A stretch of 17,207 bases of DNA from Clostridia bacterium (GTDB lineage: Bacteria > Bacillota > Clostridia > SK-Y3 > JACMMQ01). Under the pieces are notes generated by a model. The model saw only the letters and a program-made list of their open reading frames with translations. It was not told where the DNA came from and searched no databases. Each line of letters begins with the position of its first letter. The stretch's first letter is position 1. Shown here one piece after another: positions 1 through 10,214 of the stretch. The stretch is taken from the NCBI GenBank assembly GCA_014378955.1, contig JACMMQ010000262.1, positions 1 to 17,207 on the forward strand. Reading direction: 5' to 3'. The translations under genes were made by a program, and so were the position numbers.

Positions 1-217
1 AAAACCTTACTTTCTTTTTCTATCGCAAAAAGAAAGTAACAAAGAAAAATACTCTTTGAGTGTTTGGATTTCGCCGTCTGCGGACGACGATAAGGGATTC
101 CATCCCTTAACCCTGCAATTTTTTGAAAAAAATTGATTAAAACTTTGATATAAAAACCCCCCAACTAAAGTTTTTGTCCCCTTTTTTCAAAAAGGGGCGG
201 GTGTGGGCAGCGCCCAC
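1..217 (+). repeat. Element A, copy 1: chain of short inverted repeats upstream of rimP
   Basis: Non-coding stretch built of successive hairpins. A 13-bp perfect stem has arms 7-19 and 27-39. The rest are a 5-bp stem (40-44/54-58), a CG-rich stem with TGCG loop (72-78/83-89), a 7-bp stem (91-97/103-109), an AT stem (116-123/128-135), an 8-bp stem (139-146/167-174), a C4T5/A5G4 stem (178-186/189-197) and GTGGGC-AGC-GCCCAC (203-217). The same modules recur in the same order at 9919-10214 and, partly rearranged, at 7051-7274. The first 72 bases match copy 3 except for one loop base. There are no terminal inverted repeats and no coding potential. The left edge coincides with the window edge, so it may extend further. 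The right end lies about 20 bp ahead of the rimP ribosome binding site. Function unknown; REP/BIME-like repeat or structured RNA are both possible. Confidence 0.85.
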
Positions 218-7050: not shown

Positions 7051-7274
7051 GGGTTTCGCATGCTGTGGCATGCAACAATTTTTTTGAAAAAAATTGAGTA
7101 AAACTTGAAGTGTTTGGGTTTCGCCGTCTGCGGACGACGACAAAGGGCGCCGCCCTTTTGAAACCCGCAATTTTTTGAAAAAAATTGATTAAAACTTTAG
7201 TTATCTAAATCAACCACATTAAAGTTTTTTGCCCCCTTTTTTTCAAAAAAGGGGTGGGTGTGGGCAAAGCCCAC
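7051..7274 (+). repeat. Element A, copy 2 (rearranged) between truB and ribF
   Basis: From 7111 to 7274 this matches the later modules of element A. They are the CG stem with TGCG loop (7122-7128/7133-7139), AAAGGGC-GCC-GCCCTTT (7142-7158), the AATT-rich stem, the AAAACTTTA/TAAAGTTTT pair, the C/T-run stem and GTGGGC-AAA-GCCCAC (7260-7274). The first 13-bp hairpin module is missing. In its place are GCATGC-TGTG-GCATGC (7058-7073) and an extra copy of the AATT-rich module (about 7074-7106), so the copy looks like a mosaic. Arms GGGTTTC (7116-7122) and GAAACCC (7160-7166) could enclose two hairpins in a junction; this outer pairing is not present in the other copies. The GCATGC hairpin followed by T7 could act as a weak terminator after truB. 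Confidence 0.8.
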
Positions 7275-7297: not shown

Positions 7298-8248
7298 ATG
7301 AAGATTATTGAGGATTTGAAGCAATTGAATATGACCTTTTTAAACGGGTCAGGCGTTGCACTAGGCAATTTTGACGGACTGCACAAGGGGCATATATCGC
7401 TTCTTCGTCGCCATTTGGAGGCATGTCACAAAAAGGGCTTAGCGGCTGGCGTATTTACATTTTCCAATCATCCTGCACACGTGCTTTTGAAGGGCAGACC
7501 GTTTTCGCTCATCATGTCCAATGATGAGAAAATCGCCTTGCTCGGTGCATCTGGGTTGGATTTTTTAATTTTGCAAGCATTTGATGAAGCGTTTCGTGAA
7601 ATCTCTGCAAACGACTTTATCATGAATATATTGGTGCACACACTCAATGCCAAGCACATCACAGTGGGACAAAACTTTCGTTTTGGTAAGCAAGGCTTAG
7701 GCACAGTCGAGATGCTCGAAAAAGCAGGCGCAGCGCATGGCTTTTCAGTAACGGTCGTACCGCTGTATGAAGCCAAGAGCAAGGTGGTATCAAGCACAGC
7801 CATTCGAAAACTCGTACAAATAGGGGACATGAGCGGTGCACAAACCATGCTGGGTAGACCGTACACGGTGACAGGTGTCGTGAAGCTAGGCAAGCAATTA
7901 GGGAGCAAAATCGGCTTTCCTACGCTTAACATTTTACCCGAGAGCTGGCGGTTGTTACCCAAATTCGGTGTTTACATGACCAAGACGACCATTGGCGACC
8001 ATACCTATAAAAGCATCACAAACGTAGGGATCAACCCCACAGTAGGCGACCCATCCCCACGCATTGAAACACATTTACTGGATTTTTCGGGCGATTTATA
8101 CGGTCAAATCATTACCGTGAGCTTTTTGGGGAAAATTAGAAGCGAAAAGAAATTTGAATCGGTACAAGCATTACAAACACAGATTGCAATTGATGTCAAG
8201 AAGGCGAGGGATTATTTTGCTCTCATTCAGAACTGTACAGGCAAATGA
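7298..8248 (+). CDS. ribF: Bifunctional riboflavin kinase / FAD synthetase
   Basis: Makes FMN from riboflavin and then FAD, using ATP. The 316-residue protein has an N-terminal adenylyltransferase domain (about 1-185) with VALGNFDGLHKGH (HxGH-type motif at 29-32) and the SSTAIRKL motif. The C-terminal riboflavin kinase domain (about 185-305) has GSKIGFPTLNI, NVGINPTVGD and a following RIETHLLDF that contributes the catalytic glutamate. The reading frame stays open back to 7229, but that part is inside element A copy 2. GAGGA at 7288-7292 is 5 bases from the ATG at 7298, which gives a family-like N terminus. The end overlaps the next gene by 32 bases. Confidence 0.94.
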   Translation: MKIIEDLKQLNMTFLNGSGVALGNFDGLHKGHISLLRRHLEACHKKGLAAGVFTFSNHPAHVLLKGRPFSLIMSNDEKIALLGASGLDFLILQAFDEAFREISANDFIMNILVHTLNAKHITVGQNFRFGKQGLGTVEMLEKAGAAHGFSVTVVPLYEAKSKVVSSTAIRKLVQIGDMSGAQTMLGRPYTVTGVVKLGKQLGSKIGFPTLNILPESWRLLPKFGVYMTKTTIGDHTYKSITNVGINPTVGDPSPRIETHLLDFSGDLYGQIITVSFLGKIRSEKKFESVQALQTQIAIDVKKARDYFALIQNCTGK

Positions 8249-9317
8249 AATTGAGGCGGTAAAAGACCTATGGGCATACAGCTTTGGCAATGATGAACCA
8301 TTCTTTTCACGCTATTTTAAAGAAATGTATAGCCCTGCGCTCACGTGTGGGCTTTTTTTGCACAATCAATTAATCGTATGTGGGCAAGTGCGTACGCACG
8401 AAATTATGCTGAGAGGGAAACCGAGAAAATGTGGCTATCTCATTGGCATTACCACCCATGTGGCTTTTCGGGGTCAAGGATATTTTAAACAATGGATGCA
8501 ACACATAAAAACATGGATGCAGGAGCAGGGCTATGTGTGTGCCGTGTTAGTGCCGTTTGAAATCGGCGCATACAAGCCATTCGGGTTTGAAACGTGCTAT
8601 TTGAAGCAAAGGTTAACACTGCCGATACAAGCACTCACCGGCAAGCTTCATACTACCATGCAGGAAGTTTTAAATGTATCTGAATTAAAGAATATTTACA
8701 CACAATACATCAAGCCCTACCACGGTGCAATCATACGAGACCAAACCGCATGGGATTACGCCTTTTTAGATTTAGCACACATACAAGGACACGCCTATCG
8801 CATCGCCGATGATAGTGGTTATGTGCTGTATGCGATACACGATAACATTTTAAAAGTAAGAGAAATGGTGTATTTGAATGGTCAAGCAAGAGCAACCTTG
8901 TTTGCATTTTTAAAAGGTCACATAGGACAAGTCACCAAAGTGGTGATGGAATTACCTGCATCAGACAAGACGATTTTTACAATAAATGATGGCATTTCAC
9001 CAACAAGGCGTAATGTTACGGAGTTGCTTCCGTATGCGAGTGGGTTGGTGCTGTCGGTTGAAGAGGCTTTAGATGGATTAGAAATTCCAAAATATTTGAA
9101 ACAAAGTGTCATTGTTACGATAGGAGAAAACCATTATCAACTATCCGCAGAAAATGGCATATTAAGCGTGCAACCATCTATGCAGGCAGATGAAATTATG
9201 ATGAGTATTGGGGCGTTTAGCCAATACTATTTTGGGGCAGTTACATGTGAGAAAAACCTATTTTTGCAAAAGATATTGCCTAAAATGGATAATTATATGG
9301 TTGAGGATTATTTATAA
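8217..9317 (+). CDS. Eis-like GNAT family N-acetyltransferase
   Basis: Probable acetyl-CoA-dependent N-acetyltransferase of the Eis type; the substrate cannot be inferred. In the 366-residue reading the N-terminal GNAT domain shows LWAYSFGNDEPFFSRYF and the acetyl-CoA-binding region GITTHVAFRGQGYFKQWM, followed by VPFEIGAYKPFGFE. The C-terminal part resembles the SCP2-like domain of Eis proteins (QADEIMMSIGAFSQYYFGA). The start is uncertain. TTG 8217 has GCGAGGG at 8204-8210 with 6-base spacing and gives MLSFRTVQANEIEAVKDLW, which fits the family. The ATGs at 8193 and 8154 have no visible ribosome binding site. The gene overlaps the end of ribF, so the two are probably coupled. It is not part of the conserved superoperon and is likely a lineage-specific addition. 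Confidence 0.8.
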   Translation: MLSFRTVQANEIEAVKDLWAYSFGNDEPFFSRYFKEMYSPALTCGLFLHNQLIVCGQVRTHEIMLRGKPRKCGYLIGITTHVAFRGQGYFKQWMQHIKTWMQEQGYVCAVLVPFEIGAYKPFGFETCYLKQRLTLPIQALTGKLHTTMQEVLNVSELKNIYTQYIKPYHGAIIRDQTAWDYAFLDLAHIQGHAYRIADDSGYVLYAIHDNILKVREMVYLNGQARATLFAFLKGHIGQVTKVVMELPASDKTIFTINDGISPTRRNVTELLPYASGLVLSVEEALDGLEIPKYLKQSVIVTIGENHYQLSAENGILSVQPSMQADEIMMSIGAFSQYYFGAVTCEKNLFLQKILPKMDNYMVEDYL

Positions 9318-9862: not shown

Positions 9863-9884
9863 GAGCGGTGGTTCCGCTCTTTTT
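9863..9884 (+). terminator. Intrinsic terminator after rpsO
   Basis: GAGCGG (9863-9868), loop TGGTT, CCGCTC (9874-9879), then five T (9880-9884), eight bases after the rpsO stop. This separates rpsO from pnp at least partly. Confidence 0.85.
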
Positions 9885-9918
9885 GCATTGTAAGAAATAT
9901 CAAATTTTGGCACTGGTC

Positions 9919-10214
9919 AAAACCTTACTTTCTTTTTCTATCGTAAAAAGAAAGTAACAAAGAAAAATACTCTTTGAGTGTTAAGATTTCGTTGTCTGCG
10001 GACAACGCCAAGGGTTCCACCCCTTGACCCCGTAATTTTTTGAAAAAAATTAAGTAAAACTTTAGATATAAAAACCCCAACTAAAGTTTTTGTCCCCTTT
10101 TTTCAAAATGGGGCGGGCGATGACCACGCCACCTTCGTGGCTATGAATGCAGAAACGCATTCATTTGGTCGAATAGAAGAAATATTGCTACGCAATATAT
10201 TGGGCAGCGCCCAC
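9919..10214 (+). repeat. Element A, copy 3, interrupted by element B
   Basis: The left part (9919-10117) follows copy 1 module by module, starting with the same 13-bp stem with one loop change. The CG stem has changed to CGTTGTC-TGCG-GACAACG (9990-10007), a paired C-G to T-A change plus repair of the C/A mismatch seen in copy 1. The next hairpin is CAAGGG/CCCTTG (10009-10026). After GGGGCGGG the sequence is broken by an inverted element B (10117-10199) and resumes with TGGGCAGCGCCCA (10201-10213), the last hairpin of copy 1. The repeat fills most of the 454-bp stretch between the rpsO terminator and pnp. Confidence 0.85.
10117..10199 (-). repeat. Element B, copy 2, nested inside element A copy 3
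   Basis: Reverse complement of the nusA-ylxR repeat. It begins GCGATGACCACGCCACC and ends with the AATATTGC/GCAATAT hairpin (10181-10198). All three hairpins are retained. It lies between the GGGGCGGG and TGGGCAGCGCCC parts of element A that are adjacent in copy 1, with at most a base or two lost. No clear target-site duplication is visible. The nesting shows that B arrived after A at this site. Confidence 0.85.

Follow-up and report, generated by a model that had tools for sequence, protein, structure and literature searches.

The chain of hairpins that opens the window (the whole stretch of 17,207 nucleotides that was analysed, contig C30 of the host assembly G000) is one copy of a modular, non-coding repeat, Element A, which is probably a BIME/REPIN-like, non-autonomous DNA element mobilised in trans by an enzyme. 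Its copies are dispersed, modular and intergenic, their units are mostly paired in inverse orientation, the stems covary, and no target duplication accompanies them; moreover, related units recur in unrelated families of Clostridia, and close relatives carry differing module sets at one and the same site. Mobilisation itself is what we infer from these observations. The sequence-only reading of this DNA had proposed either a large composite repeat of the REP/BIME type or a dispersed structured RNA. The former fits the composite build, the mostly alternating inverted units, the intergenic position and the high copy number, although strict membership among REPs or REPINs does not hold; the latter is weakened by mixed orientation, terminator-like hairpins before many copies and the rarity of G-U pairs outside H2. 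A literature search, with most subscription journals outside its scope, returned no description of the repeat, and the element is apparently undescribed. The 40 genomes on which a 2008 survey of stem-loop families was based include Clostridium perfringens and C. tetani (PMC2267715).

The window contains three related hairpin chains, whose features are collected in Table 1. A full element reads H1, H2, H3, R', a loop of variable sequence and length, and R. The order H1 to H8 is common to copies 1 and 3 and the left part of copy 2 differs, so that the earlier claim of the same ordered set of inverted repeats at three places is borne out as to the repeats, which occur at all three, but not as to the set, copy 2 being without H1 and H2. 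R is made up of AAAGTTTTTG, H7, CGGGTGT and H8, followed by a foot of about 8 bases that is weakly kept, and R' of H4, CCCGC, H5 and TAAAACTTT. The R consensus, about 50 nt long, consists of AAAGTTTTnG, a hairpin closed by TTTTTC-AAAA, the bases GGGTGT and a second, GC-rich hairpin; the outer stem of the first hairpin changes freely. A model built from R units only also recognises R', which in many copies it detects on the opposite strand (46 bits in L103). Within copy 1, residues 120-146 pair with 167-193 (81% complementary) as a large internal inverted repeat, and the R'/R pair can fold either into its separate hairpins or into a single long one. RNA folding with short flanks gave -73.8, -79.1 and -100 kcal/mol for copies 1, 2 and 3, with z-scores of -6.0, -4.0 and -7.0 relative to dinucleotide shuffles, each copy beating every shuffle made.

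Table 1. Coordinates of Element A copies and of their parts in the window.
Feature	Position	Strand	Remarks
Copy 1, full element	1..217	+	upstream of rimP; contig starts at the first base of the copy
H1	7..39	+	TTACTTTCTTTTT-loop-AAAAAGAAAGTAA
H2	47..65	+	small hairpin, U-G pair almost invariant
H3	69..89	+	CGCCGTC-TGCG-GACGACG; stem changeable, core TCTGCGGA retained
R' of copy 1 (contains H4 and H5)	95..146	-	R unit in inverse orientation; 28.7 bits with the R-only model
Variable loop separating R' and R, copy 1	147..166	.	half-elements stop here
R unit of copy 1	167..216	+	H7 CCCCTTTTTTCAAAAAGGGG and H8 TGGGCAGCGCCCA
Copy 2, mosaic	7051..7274	+	without H1/H2
GCATGC hairpin of copy 2, in place of H1/H2	7058-7073		
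Weak extra R'-like half, copy 2	7071-7107		17.3 bits, E 0.047
H3 of copy 2	7119..7139	+	
R' of copy 2	7145..7198	-	R model
R of copy 2	7222..7273	+	R model
Terminator-like hairpin with T run	9863..9879	+	separates copy 3 from the gene upstream
Optional 5' extension of copy 3	9890..9918	+	GTAAGAAATATCAAATTTTGGCACTGGTC
Copy 3, full element with extra module	9919..10214	+	
R' of copy 3	10012..10063	-	R model
R of copy 3, split by the inserted module	10083..10130	+	R model
Inserted module of copy 3	10120..10200	+	ATGACCACGCC...GCAATATAT; core TGACCACGCC

The host assembly (1.53 Mb in 330 contigs) contains the H1 core 76 times, 51 forward and 25 reverse, as 71 exact and 5 near copies, with none found by the reversed-pattern control; for the 3' hairpin of R plus its foot the count is 91, compared with 0 in the control. 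The assembly is 61% complete, and the three copies in 10 kb of the earlier reading become at least 76. This genome-wide spread rules out a local duplication, the outcome under which that reading would have had to be given up, and an assembly artefact is ruled out by copies that lie inside contigs with differing flanks. Several host contigs start or end in or near copies (C30:1, C40:5, C179:22, C217:9 and C219:1), which accounts for copy 1 beginning at base 1; the element probably fragments the host assembly. Of the 76 copies, 75 were read with their flanks, the match in C156 being left out. R is in reach in 50 of these 75 and not in reach in 12, and H5 is not in reach in a further 13. Seven of these 12 have flanks long enough to show a stop in the loop and no R (L069, L071, L079, L096, L101, L107 and L115), and the remaining ones run out at a contig end. 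The left part with R' thus exists without R, and R exists without the left part: solo R units, of another subtype (GGGTCAAGGGG...CCCCTTG), lie at L109:648-702 and L111:529-580. The optional 5' extension precedes 20 of 67 scored copies (minimum score 15, and in every case higher than any of 100 shuffles), its consensus having been derived from the same copies that were then scored.

Further modules are nested within the element. The core TGACCACGCC of the module inserted in copy 3 is found forward in 4 of the 75 copies and reversed in 7, the reversed module being placed in the left arm in the copies examined (L080, L094, L096 and L100), and a TTTGCAGGC hairpin lies within R in 4 of the 75. Another 4 of the 75 copies carry a palindrome of about 118 nt after the 5' arm of H2; this insert, in L084, L086, L104 and L113, has long inverted ends (ATACTAATCTT...AAGATTAGTAT) and looks like a separate, MITE-like element. 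In each copy examined the insert sits at the identical internal site despite unrelated flanks, and composites are therefore copied as wholes. Outside the host, a GGCAGTTGCGAAGCAACTG hairpin is nested in the R' hairpin of a unit upstream of rimP (L255, genome G298).

All three copies of the window lie in spacers whose neighbouring housekeeping genes share a single direction, in agreement with the gene junctions described from the letters. Among these genes are rimP, nusA and nrnA, named by NCBIfam, and others that we take from their translations to be truB, ribF, rpsO and pnp. The window also encodes, at 8154-9317, a GNAT-type protein with Acetyltransf_9 and Acetyltransf_17 domains and a weak match to Eis-like models. 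In the host as a whole the copies are intergenic; called ORFs overlap the nominal ends of some of them by at most 85 nt and one called ORF crosses a copy (L103), the crude longest-ORF rule used for gene calling permitting ORFs to overlap with copy ends. A constant orientation relative to transcription, as had been claimed, is seen in the window but not genome-wide: the flanking genes of the 45 copies with genes on both sides are oriented ++ in 24 cases, -- in 10, convergent in 6 and divergent in 5 (tandem bias of 24 versus 10, p = 0.024). The element is faced by its upstream gene in 46 of 64 copies (p = 0.0006) and has a downstream gene of like orientation in 34 of 56 (p = 0.14). A terminator-like hairpin is present within 110 nt upstream, on the strand of the element, in 25 of 65 copies, compared with 1.4 expected from mononucleotide shuffles and with 11 on the other strand; it is found in 22 of 46 copies located after a co-oriented gene versus 3 of 18 located after an opposed one. 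The upstream genes facing the element, together with these terminator counts, therefore indicate a preference for sites 3' of genes, frequently past the terminator.

Pairing within the stems was analysed in alignments of host copies and of units from other genomes. Alignment A1 holds 35 of 39 standard-length copies (the 4 with the TTTGCAGGC hairpin being left out), A2 21 of 41 host R units together with 6 from the relative G023, A3 50 of 75 copies, and A4 28 of 56 host segments with all 15 segments from elsewhere. Over 50 copies of the host left unit, 95.0% of the cells are paired, compared with 46.7-54.0% when partners are slid, and 85 cells are double-changed versus 28.1 in shuffles. For H3-H4 across three families (43 segments), 93.1% of the cells are paired versus 34.4-60.7% with slid partners, 93 cells are double-changed versus 31.0 in shuffles, and G-U occurs in 2 of 595 cells. 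The cross-family set weighs most, because related sequences can exceed shuffles by descent. Further pair types do not rise above the shuffles (15 versus 16.7 in the host left unit, 13 versus 16.3 in the three families), nor does the number of pairs with a double change in the three-family set (8 versus 7.0, with 141 of 500 shuffles as high). The R stems of 91 cores from other genomes and the window comprise 876 pairs, of which 867 are Watson-Crick and 6 G-T; a further set of 92 cores includes the window and a few host loci. Without host loci (88 cores, 33 distinct arm pairs), the R arms are 91.5% Watson-Crick, compared with a shuffled mean of 43.8% and maximum of 58.8%, and G-T makes up 5 of 165 pairs in the fixed five-base arms. 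H1 shows T-A/A-T and T-A/G-C exchanges with 6 double-changed cells and 1 unpaired cell at those pairs. H3 in the host is only 85.1% paired, the unpaired cells being mostly C-A on the + strand, which would be G-T on the other and does not decide between the two strands. A functional RNA is expected to show a clearly larger share of G-U pairs, and the low share therefore suggests that pairing is maintained at the DNA level, be it in single-stranded DNA hairpins, in cruciforms or by palindrome correction. Against this stand the U-G pair of H2, present in 48 of 49 host copies, and the loop of H3, which on the + strand is mostly a UNCG tetraloop (TGCG, TTCG, TACG; one TGAG) and fits RNA.

These data bear directly on the reading as a dispersed structured RNA, that is, a portable 5'-leader regulator, co-transcribed with the downstream gene, whose hairpins act on mRNA stability or translation. 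Strong folding, covariation and the UNCG loops agree with it, and so does the short distance, at most about 50 nt in many co-oriented copies, from the nominal 3' end (base 217) to the start called next. The mixed orientation of the flanking genes and the terminator-like hairpins that separate nearly half of the co-oriented copies from the upstream gene do not, and G-U pairs are rare outside H2. Moreover, by eye, the units in the genus of G143 stand upstream of the apparent rimP promoter. Rfam gave no match above the gathering score in the window and only a tRNA in 9 further loci, the matches below threshold looking like chance, and the known family that could have overturned the earlier reading did not appear. 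A portable promoter, for which H5 would supply TTGAAA and the loop a -10, was considered as well and rejected, promoter-like matches across R' and the loop being found in 24 of 58 copies versus 20.0 expected with the loop shuffled. We thus regard a regulatory RNA as unlikely, and as less likely than a BIME/REPIN-like mobile repeat.

The DNA of copy 1 is matched at full length in the host only; short matches occur in 3 of 40 relatives, at 11 places, 9 of which are in G023, and a BLAST search of copy 1 against plasmid and phage records gave no match. The R model reaches further. The count in host and relatives that had been called for gives, beside the H1 cores of the host, R-model matches in 13 of 291 genomes of the class, host included (E of 0.001 or less, 20 candidates scored per genome): at least 20 in G143, 19 in G023, 8 in G251, 7 in G014 and fewer in the others. 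Within the phylum (398 genomes including the host, 14 candidates scored per genome), 3 genomes have a match at E of 1e-4 or less, all from the class of the host. A plain R pattern was found in at least 107 stretches of a contig database; among the matches listed, 79 of 80 loci, several of them per genome, are titled Clostridia or Firmicutes, and the carriers include Acutalibacter, Neglectibacter, Oscillospiraceae, Defluviitaleaceae and uncultured Clostridia. The remaining locus, from the alphaproteobacterium Kangsaoukella, has an unpaired left arm and was taken as chance. The H3 pattern is present in 8 of 291 genomes, the reversed control giving 1 match, and is multi-copy in G000 (42), G143 (42), G281 (8) and G165 (3); the matches in G075 and G081, with unpaired stems, and those in G040 and G206, which are singletons, were read as chance or uncertain. 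The order H3-H4-H5 is kept in G000, in G143 and in G281/G165, hence in three families, although the stems differ. H1 was rejected as a widespread module: it is multi-copy only in the host (67), G064 (9) and G201 (2), and elsewhere its pattern occurs as singletons at about the frequency of the reversed control.

Among loci from other genomes, 40 pairs of R neighbours lie less than 600 nt apart; 33 of the 40 are oppositely oriented and 7 share one orientation (31 of 38 opposite when duplicate loci are removed); this tally covers all 170 rows, a part of which gave 29 of 33. An element of about 350 nt in Oscillospiraceae SIG683 is bounded, as judged by eye, by R on one side and R' on the opposite one and encloses H1-like hairpins, which is the host arrangement turned inside out. 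This element, at L137:6930-7390 and in homologues from SIG683, is near-palindromic and matches itself in both orientations at about 74%. Pairs of R units are also found beside genes for a tail sheath, an XkdN-like chaperone and a tail tube (L243:824-2642 and L245:6261-8078, IMG/VR contigs that are alike in the parts compared); the repeat therefore also enters prophage-type operons.

REP-type repeats are best known from Proteobacteria. They are tied to RAYT transposases (PMC3116915, PMC3733652). REPINs, as described in PMC3116915, consist of two inverted palindromic units around a variable spacer, show compensatory stem changes, are extragenic and of high copy number, occur as singlets and doublets, and fold as hairpins or clovers, in all of which Element A resembles them. 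On the other hand, the units of the latter are about 50 nt long with two hairpins each, compared with about 20 nt in REPINs, and it has the extra modules H1-H3, no GTAG tag and no visible association with a RAYT; the agreement is one of geometry only (inverted units, capacity to form hairpins), the units not being REPs. REPs are palindromes of 20-40 bp with a GTAG or CGTC tag at one end (PMC3733652), of which the CGTC repeats are reported there to have no dedicated transposase. R units are likewise palindromic and intergenic, but differ from these in their length of about 50 nt, their two hairpins and their lack of a fixed tag: by inspection, neither our consensus nor the R units of other genomes have GTAG or CGTC fixed at an end, and in the many copies that do contain CGTC it belongs to the H3 stem, which is changeable. 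The main text of PMC3733652 contains neither the word Firmicutes nor Clostridi. BIMEs are composites of REPs in alternating orientation (PMC2817692). Element A is similar to them, by description, in being a mosaic of mostly alternating units, as in the neighbour tally above, with linkers and optional modules, whereas its units are not REPs and its host is of the class Clostridia. The BOX element of pneumococcus, built as boxA-boxB(n)-boxC, is also modular, structured and dispersed, nests with other repeats and is thought to be parasitic (PMC3049150); it is reported there to have terminal inverted repeats and target duplications, neither of which is seen in Element A, and this comparison too is one of descriptions.

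That the element is a true REPIN or REP moved by a RAYT, a Y1 HUH transposase, would agree with this geometry, with the compensatory changes and with the hairpin or clover folds (PMC3116915). Y1_Tnp, the enzyme covered by our search, gave no match in the host assembly, nor in G143, G251, G064 and G281 (98-100% complete) or in G292 and G293. The missing enzyme in the host is weak evidence because of the 61% completeness of that assembly. Y1_Tnp was found in 4 of 10 R-positive genomes versus 6 of 11 genomes without an R match, and shows no association with R units in this small set. Unsystematic inspection showed no transposase flanked by R units. The spread of Y1 enzymes is treated in PMC6006769. 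Together with the lack of a GTAG tag in the consensus, these results make mobilisation by a RAYT quite unlikely.

A MITE of the classical kind, belonging to a DDE transposase and delimited by terminal inverted repeats, would likewise be small, non-coding, intergenic and of high copy number, and the insert nested in H2 looks like one. The ends of Element A, AAAACCTTAC (AAAACC...) and GCCCAC, are by inspection not inverse to each other; the early statement that terminal inverted repeats are lacking is accurate in this respect, though a large inverted repeat does exist in the interior. No target duplication had been visible in the window, and in the 40 copies with both flanks the repeats at the boundaries do not exceed those of shuffled pairs. 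Both hallmarks of a standard MITE are thus lacking, as the sequence-only reading had concluded, and half-elements and solo R units occur, so that we consider a MITE a highly improbable explanation. The site upstream of rimP in the genus of G143 shows turnover rather than a clean empty site: units are present in G143, G298 and G300, with module sets that differ at 89-94% identity, G302 begins inside a unit, and the spacer of G299 is without a unit, yet its sequence is unrelated, and the comparison yielded no insertion that has a matching empty site as its counterpart. Finally, it is scarcely credible that an otherwise inert repeat owes its paired stems to a mutational process in replication, be it template switching or palindrome correction, and not to selection: the double changes with few visible intermediates in H1 and the rarity of G-U would follow, but the recurrence across families of the unpaired feet (AAAGTTTT, GGGTGT) and of the H3 core TCTGCGGA, and the dispersal of the copies, would be left unexplained; such a process and mobilisation in trans may act together.

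For a BIME/REPIN-like element mobilised in trans, the following course may be proposed. The core is R together with the inverse R' across the variable loop, the left module H1-H3 and the optional inserts riding along. Spread would occur when single-stranded DNA, such as that of replication forks, folds into the hairpins and a trans-acting enzyme recognises the R/R' hairpins with their unpaired feet and moves the stretch between them; the copies that persist would be chiefly those in spacers and downstream of genes, which may do little harm. The mover need not be a Y1/RAYT transposase. We further put forward, tentatively and as a rather doubtful extension, that the R-unit elements of Clostridia could form a separate superfamily of single-strand-hairpin mobile elements that spread without a Y1/HUH enzyme (RAYT), through an undescribed enzyme or through host replication and recombination alone, with stems that renew themselves by paired Watson-Crick changes.

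With this repeat, the contig breaks met in assembly and annotation acquire a named cause. It also allows one to test what maintains palindromic stems, be it selection, a transposase or palindrome correction. As a modular repeat of several families of Clostridia, dense in the host and in certain further genomes that gave no RAYT, it would mean, if the above holds, that this lifestyle arose or persists without RAYT.
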